Assembly: GCA_905234195.1 (NCBI GenBank)
Contig: CAJOFR010000013.1
Coordinates: forward strand, 1-41,320
DNA from: an uncultured Selenomonadaceae bacterium
GTDB lineage: Bacteria > Bacillota > Negativicutes > Selenomonadales > Selenomonadaceae
Length of the DNA stretch: 41,320 nucleotides
Reading direction: 5' to 3'
Within the stretch, counting starts at the first letter, position 1. Every line of letters starts with the position of its first letter. Both the position numbers and the translations under genes were made by a program. Shown one piece after another: positions 20,512 through 41,190 of the stretch. Below the pieces are notes generated by a model. It saw only the letters and a program-made list of their open reading frames with translations, was not told the origin of the DNA and made no database searches.

Positions 20512-20542
20512 CTAACCACTAATCTCTAATCCCTAGCCACTA
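20512..20542. repeat. Heptad repeat array at the atpG stop codon
   Basis: Four consecutive seven-base units (plus strand CTAACCA, CTAATCT, CTAATCC, CTAGCCA) end in the CTA that is the atpG TAG stop on the minus strand. The units are in exact seven-base phase and fill the gap up to the atpD ribosome site. Confidence 0.8.
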
Positions 20543-21649
20543 TTTGAGGGCTTCCGCGCCGCCGACAATCTCGTTAATCTCGTTGGTAATGCCCGCTTGA
20601 CGAACTTTATTGTAGTAGAGATTAAGCTTGCCAACAAGTTCTTGCGCGTTGTCAGTGGCGTTGCTCATTGCGTTCATTCGGGAGCTTAATTCCGATGCCG
20701 CGCTTTGCAACATTGCGCCGTAAATCCTCGTCGCCAATCTCTGCGGCAAAAAATTATTCAGCACGGAAACAATATCCGGCTCGTAAATATATTCTTCCTT
20801 CGTGTTGGTGTTCGCGGCGTAGTCGTCCGTGATAATCGGCAAAAGTGTCACGTCGTCCGGCGTGCAACTTATCGCCGAATTAAAGCGCGTGTAAATCATC
20901 GTCACGTCAAGAATTTCTCCGCTCATGAATCTTTCGATAATCAAGTTGGCAATTTCCTGCGCGTACTGATAGCTGGGACGTTCGCTGATACCGTGATATT
21001 GTTTGATAATATTATAGCCGCGTTGCTTGAAATGCGTCGTCGCCTTTCGCCCGACGGTGATTAACTCGACGTCGTCAATGTAACCCGCGTCATTATATTC
21101 TTTCGCCACGCCGACATTGCCGCCCGCCGAAGAGCCGCCGCCGGAAGGTCTTGCGCGCCGCGCCCCTGCAGTTGCCACGCCCTTTGTCGCTTTGAGTTGC
21201 TGTTGACGGGGAGCTTTTTTCAGATCCTTGACGGCGTCGAAATTCCTCTTATGAAAATTTTCTTCCTGCGTCTCGGTATCGCTGCCCTCGTCGTCGCCGT
21301 CGTACTCTATGGTTTCGTGCGCCTCTTTGAAAACGTTACTCGCATAAGCACCGGCAAGCCCTTTGTCCGACGCGATAACCAGGAACAAAAATTTTCCGTC
21401 AGCGCGCTCCTGAATTTCTTTCAGCTCCTGCCGCGTCATGATATAGGGGCTTTGGTCTTCCAGCCCTTTCATTTGCGACATAAGCCGGCGAATAATATCG
21501 CGCGTCTTCTCGACGTAAGGAAGATTCATCAGCAAAGTATCGCGTGCGGCGTTAAACCTCGAACGGGCGATCATATCCATTGCGTTGGTGATTTTTTGGA
21601 TGCTCTTAACGCTACGGATTCTGCGGCGGATATTTTGCAAATTTGCCAT
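20540..21649 (-). CDS. atpG: ATP synthase F1 subunit gamma with a long insertion
   Basis: 369 residues, against about 285 for most bacterial gammas. The N-terminal coiled-coil helix (IRRRIRSVKSIQKITNAMDM) and the C-terminal helix (SSRMNAMSNATDNAQELV) that form the rotor shaft are intact. So is the Rossmann-like domain start, IASDKGLAGAYASNV. After residue 115 about 75 extra residues are inserted, acidic at first (DGDDEGSDTETQEE), then basic (RQQQLKATK, RRARP) and Gly/Ser-rich (SGGGSSAGG). The normal sequence resumes at VELITVGRKA (194). The insertion has no cysteine, so it is not the redox switch of chloroplast gamma, and it sits at a different place. Flanks are in frame. Confidence 0.93.
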   Translation of the reverse strand: MANLQNIRRRIRSVKSIQKITNAMDMIARSRFNAARDTLLMNLPYVEKTRDIIRRLMSQMKGLEDQSPYIMTRQELKEIQERADGKFLFLVIASDKGLAGAYASNVFKEAHETIEYDGDDEGSDTETQEENFHKRNFDAVKDLKKAPRQQQLKATKGVATAGARRARPSGGGSSAGGNVGVAKEYNDAGYIDDVELITVGRKATTHFKQRGYNIIKQYHGISERPSYQYAQEIANLIIERFMSGEILDVTMIYTRFNSAISCTPDDVTLLPIITDDYAANTNTKEEYIYEPDIVSVLNNFLPQRLATRIYGAMLQSAASELSSRMNAMSNATDNAQELVGKLNLYYNKVRQAGITNEINEIVGGAEALK

Positions 21650-21661
21650 TTACTTCACCGC

Positions 21662-23185
21662 CTACTCTGCAGTTTTGTAAGTAACAGTTTCTTTAAATTC
21701 CTTGATAGCCGCGCTAATTTCTGCCTCAAGTTCGTCGTCCAGCTTTTTCTTTTCGGCAATCTTCGCGCCGACTTCGGGATGAGTGCTGTGCATAAACTTG
21801 AGGAAGTCAGCCTGGAAGGTAACCACCTTGTCGACGGGAATATCCGTCAAAAATCCGCGAACCGCCGTAAAAATCGTGAGCACTTGGTCTTCTACGGCAA
21901 GCGGGGAATATTGCGCCTGCTTCAAAGTCTCAACCATGCGCGCGCCCCTGTCCAGCTGTGCCTTTGTCGCTTTGTCCAAGTCAGAGCCGAATTGTGCAAA
22001 AGCGGCAAGTTCGCGATACTGCGCAAGGTCAAGACGCATGGTGCCGGCGACTTGTTTCATGGCTTTGATTTGAGCGGAGCCGCCGACGCGCGAAACGGAA
22101 AGACCGACGCTTATCGCCGGACGAATGCCCGAATAGAAAGAGTCAGTTTCCAACATAATCTGCCCGTCAGTAATTGAAATGACGTTCGTGGGAATGTAAG
22201 CCGAGACGTCGCCCGCTTGAGTTTCGATAATCGGCAGGGCGGTGATTGAGCCCGCGCCGAGCCTGTCAGAAAGTTTAGCCGCGCGCTCCAAAAGTCTGGA
22301 GTGCAAATAAAAAACGTCACCGGGATAAGCTTCACGGCCGGGCGGTCTGCGGAGCAAAAGGGACATTGCACGATAAGCCGCCGCGTGTTTCGTCAAGTCG
22401 TCATAAATGCAGAGGCAATGCCCGTGCTTTTCGTACATAAAATATTCCGCCATAGCGACGCCTGAATAAGGCGCGAGATATTGCAACGGAGCAGAGTCGG
22501 CAGCGGTGGCCGCCACGACGATTGAATATTCCATTGCGCCATGATCTTCCAGAGTTTTCACGACGCGCGCAACAGTCGACGCCTTCTGCCCAATCGCCAC
22601 GTAAACGCAAATACAATTCTGCCCCTTCTGATTAATAATCGTGTCAATCGCGATAGCAGACTTGCCGATACCTCTGTCACCGATAATCAATTCGCGCTGC
22701 CCGCGCCCGATAGGTACGAGCGCATCTATTGCCTTCAGTCCGGTTTGCAGCGGCTCGTGAACGGATTTTCTGTCAGCGATACCCGGAGCTTTGAACTCAA
22801 CCGGACGCGATTGAGTTGTTGCGATTGGTCCCTTGCCGTCAATCGGACGACCGAGAGCATCGACGACACGCCCAATCATATTTTCGCCGACGGGCACCTG
22901 CATAATTCTTGCAGTGCGTTTAACCGTCGTACCCTCTTTAACTTCATTGTCGCGGCCGAGAATAACCGCGCCGACGTTATCCTGCTCAAGATTCAGAACC
23001 AAACCAAAAATATCGTCGCCGAAATCCAAAAGCTCACCCGCCATAGCTTTATCCAGCCCGTGAATGTGCGCTATGCCGTCGCCGACCTCGATAACCGTGC
23101 CGACTTCGTCAACATTTAAATCGACGTTATAATTTTTTATCTGATTCTTAATTATTGCAGTAATTTCATCAGGATTTATTTTCAT
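21662..23185 (-). CDS. atpA: ATP synthase F1 subunit alpha
   Basis: 507 residues, normal length. Walker A GDRGIGKS is at 169-176; [14 protein letters not shown] near 370 and the arginine in it match the alpha signature region that reaches into the catalytic site. It forms the F1 hexamer with beta. ATG 23185 follows AGAGGTGA. Upstream, where atpH normally abuts, a secreted-protein gene intervenes. Confidence 0.95.
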
Positions 23186-23224
23186 GTTTTACGCTTCACC
23201 TCTCTTGTTAGGTTGAAAAATTTT

Positions 23225-39829: not shown

Positions 39830-39834
39830 TCTTT

Positions 39835-39860
39835 CGGCTTGAATGAGCCGTTTTGTTTTT
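39835..39860 (+). promoter_or_regulatory. 5' leader hairpin with U-run before the CBS/CorC gene
   Basis: CGGCT (39835-39839) pairs with AGCCG (39846-39850) around a six-base loop and is followed by TTTTGTTTTT. It falls at or just after the expected transcript start, so it could be an attenuator or a 5' stabilising stem. Confidence 0.4.
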
Positions 39861-39882
39861 AGTTTAACGGAGGTGTCAAGTT

Positions 39883-41172
39883 TTGACCGCGTTAATTTTG
39901 CCGCTCGTGCTGATAATTTTCTTCACGATTTTGAGCGGCTATTTTTCGTTAATGCAAACCGCACTTTCAGCAAGCCGGCACACGCGAATAGAAAAATTGG
40001 CGAACGCCGGCGACAAAGGTGCACAAAAAATTTTACCGATACTCGAATCGCCGTCGCAAGCAATTTCAGCAACGCAACTGGGTATCACGCTGGCAAATGT
40101 CCTTGCCGGATTTTTCGCAACCGTGCTCGCATATTTCGTCTACCTTAAAATAAAATTCGTGATTCATCCGGAAATTTTCGCCGCGTTAATCGCGCTGACC
40201 TTCGTAATTTTTATGGTGGTCTTGTTCGGCGGGCTGTTGCCGAAGATGTCCGCGCAACAGACGCCCGAAAAATTTTTAATCAGCTACCAAAAAAGTTTTC
40301 GCTTCGCCGTGAAATTAATGAGCCCTTTTTCGGCAATGTTTTGGAAAATCACGGAAGTCTTTATGATGATTATGGACATGAACGCAAAAACTTCGGACGC
40401 GGTGACTGAAGACGAAGTCAAGGAATTAATTGAACAGGGCACGGAAGAAGGCACATTCGAGGAATCCGAGCGCGCTATGGTCGACAAAATTTTTCACTTG
40501 AGCGATCAAACGGTTTACGCCTTGATGACGCCGCGCGTGCAGATGATTTGGCTGGATATTTCTGACGGGCTTGAAAAGAATTTGAAAGTTATCCGCGAAA
40601 ATAATTTGACTGTCTTCCCCGTCGGCGAAGGCAGCCTGGACGATTGTCGCGGAGTGGTTTACGCGAAAGATCTGCTCGACGCCGCCTTGAACAAGCCCAA
40701 CGAAAAAATAGATCTGTCCGCGCTGATTAAGAAGCCGATTTTTGTTCCGCGAACTATGGATATGTTTCGCCTCGTCGAAAAATTCAAGGCAAGCGGTGAG
40801 TCCGTCGCTATGGTCAACGACGAATACGGCGGCGTTATCGGTTTTATCACGCTGGACGACATCGCGCAGGAGATTGTCGGAATTAAGGACGTCGAGATTT
40901 TGGAGGACAAACAGTTTCAGCAGAAAAAAGAAAACTCGTGGCTCGTCGACGGGCTCTACGAAATTGACGACTTCAAGAAACGTTTCAACATTGCCTCTCT
41001 TCCTAACGAGGAGGGGGATCATTTTAAAACGATGGGCGGATTTTTGACGTCGCAGTTCGGTTATATTCCGAAGGTCGGCGAAATTCGTGAGTGGAATAAT
41101 TTTCGTTTTGAGGTTGAGAAAATGGACGGCGTCCGTATCGCAAAAATCCTCGTCACTCTTTCTAGGGATTAG
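39883..41172 (+). CDS. CNNM/CorC-type membrane protein with DUF21, CBS pair and CorC/HlyC domains
   Basis: 429 residues. DUF21 (CNNM) membrane domain about 1-190 with three to four helices and SGYFSLMQTALSASRHTRIE near the N-terminus. CBS pair about 205-330 (MTPRVQMIWLD, and MVNDEYGGVIGFITLDDIAQEIVG split over 310-330). C-terminal CorC/HlyC domain about 345-425 (WLVDGLYEIDDF). Relatives are linked to Mg2+/Co2+ efflux or tolerance; older haemolysin labels are historical. TTG 39883 follows ACGGAGGTG. The last residues LSRD and the TAG stop are encoded by a heptad repeat. Confidence 0.88.
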   Translation: MTALILPLVLIIFFTILSGYFSLMQTALSASRHTRIEKLANAGDKGAQKILPILESPSQAISATQLGITLANVLAGFFATVLAYFVYLKIKFVIHPEIFAALIALTFVIFMVVLFGGLLPKMSAQQTPEKFLISYQKSFRFAVKLMSPFSAMFWKITEVFMMIMDMNAKTSDAVTEDEVKELIEQGTEEGTFEESERAMVDKIFHLSDQTVYALMTPRVQMIWLDISDGLEKNLKVIRENNLTVFPVGEGSLDDCRGVVYAKDLLDAALNKPNEKIDLSALIKKPIFVPRTMDMFRLVEKFKASGESVAMVNDEYGGVIGFITLDDIAQEIVGIKDVEILEDKQFQQKKENSWLVDGLYEIDDFKKRFNIASLPNEEGDHFKTMGGFLTSQFGYIPKVGEIREWNNFRFEVEKMDGVRIAKILVTLSRD

Positions 41173-41190
41173 CGGATAGAGATTAGGGAA
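41163..41190. repeat. Heptad repeat array at the CBS/CorC gene stop codon
   Basis: Units TAGGGAT, TAGCGGA, TAGAGAT and TAGGGAA are in perfect seven-base phase. The gene's TAG stop (41170-41172) begins the second unit. Confidence 0.8.

Follow-up and report, generated by a model that had tools for sequence, protein, structure and literature searches.

Heptanucleotide arrays at gene borders in a Quinella-like Selenomonadaceae genome: the tie to stop codons as one side of a more general placement rule

A 41,320-nt stretch of DNA from an uncultured Selenomonadaceae bacterium (hereafter, the window) carries dispersed arrays of degenerate heptanucleotide units, most of which run across the stop codons of genes. 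Using samples of this genome and of two further species, we found that, on the whole, the strand carrying the G-rich heptamers starts at a stop codon, or 11-30 nt before a start codon, and from there runs into the intergenic gap; on the start side, this border generally lies a short way upstream of the presumed ribosome-binding region. The association with stop codons forms one side of this more general border rule. Two arms located in one gap face each other, because each runs inward from its own border. We give about even chances to the reading that these are intergenic satellite arrays, similar to the short tandemly repeated repetitive (STRR) sequences of cyanobacteria, that form one- or two-armed dispersed elements and evolve by dispersed copying and rapid turnover of the arms. 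Scattered bacterial lineages carry heptamer arrays whose unit length is constant and whose sequence varies, and we found no agreed origin for them in the literature; the direction and the gene-border placement of this known kind of bacterial repeat still need an explanation. The border rule, together with the independence of the arms, is open to testing in any genome and argues against simple explanations based on hairpins, quadruplexes or stop targeting.

Genomes, Samples and Detection of Arrays

The window is contig C13 of a draft genome (G000; 2.09 Mb, 47 contigs, 88% complete), the AtpA of which is 93-95% identical to those of Quinella sp. 2Q5 and four other rumen Selenomonadaceae genomes; judged by sequence, the source is a Quinella-like Selenomonadaceae, a rumen bacterium. 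Positional statistics for G000 were calculated on the window and the initial 20 kb of each of 20 further contigs (441 kb in total); this part of the 2.09 Mb was taken at contig starts, so that the array density is possibly biased. A species of the same genus (G015) served as the second species for array statistics and G023 as the third; the G015 contigs and most G023 contigs were chosen for already known matches to arrays or to R1, a separate element described below. Genes were called by a custom script rather than a standard gene caller. Arrays of G000 were detected in a profile scan (score of at least 19) with a profile trained on the same 441-kb sample, and those of G015 and G023 by identity at a lag of seven bases, with exclusion of 9 of 133 arrays (6/111 and 3/22, respectively) that had no clear strand skew. 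The final sets include 65, 105 and 19 arrays (189 in total). An array is assigned to the + or - strand according to the strand that carries the G-rich heptamers, and is called outward if this strand runs from a gene border into the gap. Reversed sequence was dropped as a background control, because the unit TAGGGAT is identical when read backwards; an order-5 Markov simulation was used instead.

Excess of Arrays and Their Tie to Stop Codons

The profile scan of the 441-kb sample yielded 65 arrays, compared to 0.7 expected under the Markov model. Because the profile was trained on the same sample, the lag test serves as independent evidence: 14 windows of 21 bases with at least 16 matches were found at lag 7, compared to 0, 0, 4, 0, 3, 0, 3, 2 and 0 at lags 4, 5, 6, 8, 9, 10, 11, 12 and 13, with 9 and 14 at lags 14 and 21. 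The seven-base period is in excess over other periods in the samples of all three species. Arrays of G000 are 15-63 nt long (median 31). The unit learnt from this sample is approximately WAG-N-G-R-H (W, A or T), with all four bases found at position 4. Fully noncoding arrays make up 37 of the 65, one lies fully within a called gene, and most of the others are at gene ends.

Stop codons are overlapped by 27/65 arrays in G000, compared to 8.3±2.5 (maximum 16 in 300 trials) when arrays of the same lengths were placed at random into gaps with up to 21 nt of coding overlap permitted, and by 30/105 arrays in G015, compared to 12.2±3.2 (maximum 23 in 200 trials). Conversely, start codons are overlapped less often than by random placement (2 versus 9.0 arrays in G000, 5 versus 12.9 in G015). 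The association with stop codons proposed in a first-pass annotation of the window is thus beyond chance in two species, and the genome scan does not show random placement relative to stops. Among overlapped stops, TAG accounts for 18/27 in G000 and, under a slightly stricter definition, 21/25 in G015, although TAG ends only 60/409 and 59/356 called genes, respectively. Because of this enrichment, we conclude that the array provides the stop codon in most overlaps.

Border Rule and Head-to-Head Polarity

In the pooled data of the three species, the ratio of outward to inward arrays at stop borders is 76:7 within 10 nt, 6:20 at 11-30 nt and 6:23 at 31-60 nt; at start borders, it is 2:13 within 10 nt, 35:6 at 11-30 nt and 4:31 at 31-60 nt. 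One array may be counted at several borders here. Because the two borders of each gap make these counts non-independent, we recounted single arrays and obtained 46 outward versus 6 inward within 10 nt of stops, and 12 versus 6 at 11-30 nt before starts. Five of the latter six inward arrays also touch a stop; when arrays that also touch a stop were set aside, there were 33 outward arrays and 1 inward array at 11-30 nt before starts.

Close pairs of arrays in the three species are arranged head to head, with 42 (+,-) versus 2 (-,+) pairs. In G000, neighbors within 15 nt include 15 (+,-) pairs, no (-,+) pair and one (-,-) pair, which consists of two parts of a single array. Within 25 nt, G015 has 22 (+,-), 2 (-,+) and 1 (+,+) pairs, both (-,+) cases being the second boundary of a (+,-,+) triple, and G023 has 5 (+,-) pairs with no (-,+) or same-strand pair. 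The head-to-head polarity is found in tandem, convergent and divergent gaps; the divergent-gap pairs are (+,-) in 3/3 cases in G000 and 2/2 in G015.

Outside the family, we examined 75 stretches (1.21 Mb), namely the AtpA loci L064-L127 and the stretches of G041 and G043, minus those with more than 20% N. This set yielded 37 lag-7 arrays, 25 of them clearly strand-skewed and located in stretches of 4 kb or more. There are 9 outward arrays and 1 inward array within 10 nt of stops, and pairs within 100 nt are (+,-) in three cases and (-,+) in one. It should be noted that the control lags 12 and 6 gave 38 and 22 arrays in these data and that genes were called from single short stretches; the evidence for the border rule beyond the family is suggestive only. 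Degenerate heptamer arrays of a quite different sequence were seen in unrelated phyla, namely in L127, L242, L092 and L086 (Gemmatimonadetes, Acidobacteriota and Petromonas metagenome-assembled genomes), L242 being a stretch of L127's genome.

Arms, Junctions and Distribution of Heptamer Flavors

Paired arms show no greater complementarity than arms of different loci (12.67 within versus 12.34 between loci for 18 G000 pairs; 1767 of 5000 permutations as high), and the similarity of their units is at the null level as well (15 pairs in G000, 2566/5000; 22 in G015, 804/5000; 5 in G023, 960/5000). By the tests used, the arms of a pair are independent draws from the heptamer pool of the genome. 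RNA folding of single loci does yield stems; however, since arms are no more alike or complementary within pairs than between loci, arm pairing is not the constraint, and hairpin arms were rejected as a function or an origin of the arrays.

Many G000 pairs share a junction core, approximately AAG-ATTTTTTTCTCTTAAAA-CTT. Allowing up to five mismatches, it was found at 15 places in 441 kb, nine of them between arms, i.e., in 9 of 15 close pairs (by reading). At up to three mismatches genome-wide, there are 8 matches in G000, compared to 1 for the reversed core in the same genome and 0-1 for the core in each of 40 other genomes. In G015, three pairs have the same unlike arms (AATTGGG and TTAGCTG types) with near-identical junctions; junctions of this species are at most 18 nt long, and many of them are A/T runs. 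The shared cores and junctions support the copying of whole elements.

The heptamer flavor varies by species. In G015, units are more uniform than in G000 and belong to the families TTAGCTG, TTAGTGG, AATTGGG, AATTAGG, AATGCGC and others. The exact pattern WAGDGRHWAGDGRHWAGDG, which is limited to the G000 flavor and for which overlapping matches were counted separately, has 194 matches in G000, 175 in G004, 105 in G015, 86 in G014, 84 in G006, 52 in G023, 32 in G010, 31 in G021 and 12 in G017; the other 16 genomes of the genus have 0-5, and outside the genus, two of 16 genomes have 3 and 4. Read backwards, the pattern fits some units, and has 17 matches in G000 and 59 in G023. One genome, G019, has no match to the pattern and no lag-7 window in a 120-kb sample.

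Array Loci of the Window and the Ends of Their Genes

The first-pass annotation had placed in-phase degenerate heptamers at seven loci of the window; all seven are present, and each covers a stop codon. Our profile scan resolves them into nine arrays, 7/9 of which overlap a stop, one per locus. Tandem Repeats Finder detects the seven-base period at only 3/7 loci, in keeping with the degeneracy of the units. According to the profile scan and sequence reading, the array at 20509-20544 (- strand) supplies the TAG stop of atpG (20540-20542). The array at 25017-25053 (- strand), examined by the profile scan and in relatives, supplies the TAG stop of atpB (25045-25047), and a short array of 17 nt at 28572-28588 (- strand; profile scan) extends from the TAG stop of cheB onward. 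The loci at 30.6 and 31.0 kb are two-armed, with a G-rich arm followed by a C-rich arm, an arrangement missed by the earlier annotation. The first includes a left G-rich arm at 30592-30623 (+), a junction core at 30607-30629 (read on the - strand) that is like that of other loci, and a right arm at 30627-30651 (-), which begins at the TAA stop of a cupin gene. The second includes a left G-rich arm at 31014-31045 (+), a junction core at 31042-31064, and a right arm at 31049-31111 (-), which is the longest array of the window, covers the rfbD TGA stop and encodes ASVK. The remaining arrays, both on the + strand, encode LVARD and the TAG stop of an 1834-aa gene (38038-38060), and LSRD and the TAG stop of a CNNM/CorC gene (41163-41195; the contig ends 125 nt beyond). 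Sequence reading therefore agrees with the earlier claim of repeat-encoded C-termini for LVARD (gene 32550-38054), LSRD (39883-41172) and ASVK (31094-31936). At the other four loci, the first nine bases of the array contain the stop, leaving at most two repeat-encoded residues.

The same annotation raised the question of whether native C-termini were replaced, and comparison with orthologues shows this in part: atpB is shortened and the corC end differs, but atpG is unchanged. The terminal residue of AtpG is the same in the window and in 16/16 relatives, 15 of which stop with TAA or TGA and have no heptamers there; the sole relative with TAG (L053) has its own heptamers (TAGGAAT) at that stop. 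The gap between atpG and the next gene is approximately 27 nt longer in the window than in L049 (counted by reading). In AtpB, two residues follow the motif NAV in the window, compared to 5-7 in 11/14 relatives, so that the window stop is 3-5 residues earlier; the other three relatives differ more widely. The end of corC is variable, with an array of the G000 flavor at the stop in 0/19 genome relatives, and G015 (L044) carries heptamers of its own close to the corC stop, at a distance of a few bases. Noncoding satellite DNA can thus rewrite the last codons and the stop of an essential gene, for example atpB.

Possible Origins of the Arrays

Under the copying and turnover reading, elements would spread within the genome as copies of whole two-armed units, because many pairs have a core in common. 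The arms would turn over quickly after copying, by slippage and ectopic recombination; in favor of turnover are the species-specific flavor and the gene-end comparisons, in which heptamers are missing at the atpG stops of 15/16 relatives and the flavor is missing at 19 corC stops. Selection would keep most arrays out of coding sequences and ribosome-binding sites, and the stop-codon tie would be a by-product of border placement, tolerance to C-terminal changes and composition, with no function at translation ends. An arm that takes over the 3' border of a gene supplies the stop: since the unit length of seven is not divisible by three and TAG or TAA is part of most unit types, a stop is reached within approximately 21 nt in any frame.

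Several observations weigh against this reading. The core is missing from 6/15 close pairs, and many arrays stand alone. The scan at up to five mismatches lacked a shuffled control, and six of the 15 places it found lie elsewhere than between arms. No mobilizing enzyme was found, apart from one partial Y1 transposase match in G000, and neither an empty site nor a target duplication was seen, with one genome per species. In G000, the polarity of pairs 16-200 nt apart is mixed: 3 (+,-), 4 (+,+), 2 (-,-) and 0 (-,+). Among the 13 inward arrays located within 10 nt of a start, 6 touch a stop as well; the other 7 are exceptions to the border rule. Arrays located fully inside called genes number 12/189 (1/65 in G000, 10/105 in G015, 1/19 in G023), some of these genes perhaps being miscalled, and the stop overlap in G023 alone (3/19 versus 2.1) is not significant. 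Finally, copying gives no reason why unlike arms keep the same polarity, and the inward G-rich polarity from both borders is left unexplained by copying, turnover and selection. The array class is real and ordinary-looking, whereas its architecture is sharp and largely unexplained.

The alternatives differ in what they make of this polarity. Plain replication slippage, with arrays kept intergenic by selection and stop overlap resulting from short gaps, appears quite unlikely as the sole cause: it yields neither head-to-head polarity nor border placement and is hard to square with the polarity counts, and random placement with the same lengths and gaps reaches one third of the observed stop overlap. 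In favor of slippage, heptamers are the commonest long simple repeats in most genomes rich in such repeats, for which polymerase slippage was proposed (Mrazek 2007, as cited in excerpts of PMC4679880). Identity between units is 0.86 at 7 nt and declines to 0.74 at 28 nt in seven long G015 arrays, which were picked by lag-7 identity, but 12 long G000 arrays, picked by the profile, show no neighbor excess (0.61, 0.63, 0.67 and 0.60 at 7, 14, 21 and 28 nt). Slippage is likely to be a growth step of the arrays. The two readings preferred in the first-pass annotation, a mechanism that targets stop codons or a role at translation ends, are very unlikely, even though they would account for the threefold (G000) and 2.5-fold (G015) excess at stops and for the closer adherence of single arrays to the rule at stops than at 11-30 nt before starts. 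A similar rule applies to the start side, where random orientation is not seen at 11-30 nt, and the identity of the stop comes from the array; a role in coupling or as a ribosome site cannot be general, since pairs in divergent gaps, which lack stops, have the same polarity (5/5). That the arrays are G-quadruplex elements, as proposed for GGGAATC of Xanthomonas and GGGGATT of Nostoc, is close to untenable: location and strand preference are the same as those in excerpts of PMC4692102, but four GGG runs are found in only 1/65, 7/105 and 3/19 arrays of G000, G015 and G023, so that the ability to form quadruplexes is not general among the arrays and is contradicted as a general constraint.

Two further alternatives take the polarity as their starting point. 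Selected bidirectional insulators, in which the C-rich stretch, as a possible Rho loading site, stops antisense and read-through transcripts from entering genes, are an unlikely explanation. Rho loads on C-rich, G-poor stretches with regularly spaced pyrimidine-C steps. The outward G-rich rule is equivalent to an inward C-rich rule at both borders, the C-rich strand has 1.3-1.8 pyrimidine-C steps per 7 nt (with no background comparison), arms need not match, as seen, and arrays are frequent in convergent gaps, which hold 15/65 G000 arrays compared to 9.7% of intergenic bases. Conversely, units of the TTAGCTG and AATGCGC types have no pyrimidine-C step (by reading), and several species of the genus are nearly devoid of arrays of this flavor, the G019 sample lacking any lag-7 window. 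A slightly less likely scenario is telomere-like end filling, in which a broken intergenic region gains G-rich heptamers, copied from a template or from existing arrays, at both 3' ends and is then joined; it predicts independent head-to-head arms with a short AT-rich junction. The polarity is indeed fixed even with arms from different heptamer families, the 5' ends of the G-strand are near both borders, and the short G015 junctions rich in A/T runs are as expected. However, the reverse transcriptase profile RVT_1 had no match in array-rich G000 (88% complete), G004, G006, G010, G014, G015 and G021; G017 and G023, which both hold arrays, have 14 matches and 1 match, respectively. Y1 transposase had no match in G004, G006, G010, G015 and G021, and partial matches in G000 (one, profile positions 59-121) and G014. 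These searches support neither a reverse transcriptase nor a Y1 transposase as the array maker. Further arguments against end filling are the junction cores common to several loci, which point to whole-element copying, and the longer atpG gap, which shows no visible loss. The broader idea that bacteria can extend broken 3' ends with G-rich heptamers before rejoining, with arrays as fossil head-to-head 'telomere fusions', is more doubtful still; it would leave as its trace a fixed polarity, arms that are unlike, junctions rich in A and T, and arrays anchored at the two functional borders, and, if true, it could explain why the unit length is fixed at seven despite the varying sequence. This idea is kept thinkable by DRT10, a telomerase-like enzyme of bacteria, a reverse transcriptase with a template RNA, that synthesizes tandem-repeat DNA (excerpts of PMC12632851), but G000 has no RVT_1 match and no gene of that sort was detected.

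Comparison with Known Repeats

Cyanobacterial STRR heptamers are scattered between genes and consist of near-identical units of a few fixed sequences. The likeness suggested by the first-pass annotation holds as to the general kind of array, with the same unit length and intergenic scatter; the sequences are different, and near-identical fixed units were not found here, position 4 being free in G000. Heptamers of Xanthomonas and Nostoc were described in a study whose first author is reportedly Rehm. Those heptamers, GGGAATC and GGGGA(T/C)T, are mostly intergenic, with the G-rich strand either at most 50 bp from stops on the sense strand, overlaps included, or within 50 bp upstream of open reading frames on the antisense strand; convergent pairs number 70 and 75 in two Xanthomonas genomes and are few in Nostoc (excerpts of PMC4692102, 2015). 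The location rule is therefore not new in itself, since G-rich heptamers near stops and convergent pairs are already in the excerpted text. The Selenomonadaceae arrays are likewise sense at stops (76:7) and antisense before starts (35:6 at 11-30 nt), but not within 10 nt of starts (2:13). They also differ in their more degenerate units, in the presence of several families in one genome (G015), in arms that are sometimes unlike and in the small number of arrays able to form a quadruplex; in addition, the stop overlap was here compared with random placement.

According to excerpts of MacGregor 2015 (PMC4679880), TAACTGA direct repeats are found between genes in Beggiatoaceae, Cyanobacteria and Bacteroidetes; some of them overlap stops, and stops in all three frames of forward repeats limit the overlap to 18 nt. 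The same stop-in-every-frame logic applies to our arrays, which share with TAACTGA the intergenic direct repeats and partial stop overlap. However, TAACTGA is one fixed unit that, in the Beggiatoaceae genome, is mostly located just upstream of starts in one orientation, with one inverted set. Repetitive extragenic palindromic (REP) sequences and the two-armed elements that they form (REPINs) are, like the arrays, dispersed, extragenic and composed of two arms in opposite orientation; REPINs have fixed palindromes and are linked to a RAYT transposase (excerpts of PMC3116915, 2011), whereas here the arms are tandem arrays, often unlike and not complementary, and G000, at 88% completeness, has only the partial Y1 transposase match. 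A full-text literature search, the scope of which excluded most subscription journals, found no report of heptamers in Selenomonadaceae. The excerpted main text of the Quinella genome paper (PMC9585023) does not mention mobile or transposable elements, IS elements, or intergenic or noncoding DNA, and the word 'repeat' occurs in it only in a methods phrase.

R1 Element and Other Observations

Beside the 38038 array, nhmmer detected a copy of a separate dispersed element with three hairpins (model R1) at 38076-38197 (- strand). R1 is approximately 108 nt long, with hairpins CTNCTTTTCTTTTG..., GCCCGC with inner GGTCGC/GATTGC, and GGCCGNNC with the loop RTCCNT. With nhmmer, 33 copies were detected in the 441-kb sample (window and L009-L027). 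Covariation of the base pairs is strong: in an alignment fitted to the model itself, 98.3% of cells are paired and 15 pairs are changed on both sides, compared to 44-56% in slid controls. At least 94 copies are present in G000, and matches were found in 20/25 genomes of the genus and in 0/16 others. Convergent gaps hold 11/31 copies, compared to 9.7% of gap bases, and the strands in tandem gaps (9:6) show no clear bias. Among the sequences searched in Rfam, one copy scored above threshold, as Bacillaceae-1 (38.8 bits versus 35), and another gave a sub-threshold match to transfer-messenger RNA.

An array lies within 45 nt of 17/31 R1 copies in G000. Arrays as fixed ends of R1 were rejected: G019 has 44 R1 matches without the array pattern or, in 120 kb, a lag-7 window, and G014 has 3 R1 and 86 array matches. 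G002 and G011, with 62 and 70 R1 matches and 4 and 2 array matches of this flavor, are weaker evidence against the link, because G002 carries other heptamers (L130).

Four contigs (L008, L011, L013 and L019) share the same start, 96-99% identical over approximately 100-143 nt, which may represent the end of an insertion sequence at which the assembly broke. The 1834-aa gene contains two copies of a 39-base acidic coding repeat (window 34362-34438), and its product has weak AAA-ATPase similarity only, in the C-terminal third. AtpG (20540-21649, - strand) has 369 aa, compared to approximately 286 in the family profile, and matches the profile in two stretches, which suggests an internal insertion of approximately 80 residues.

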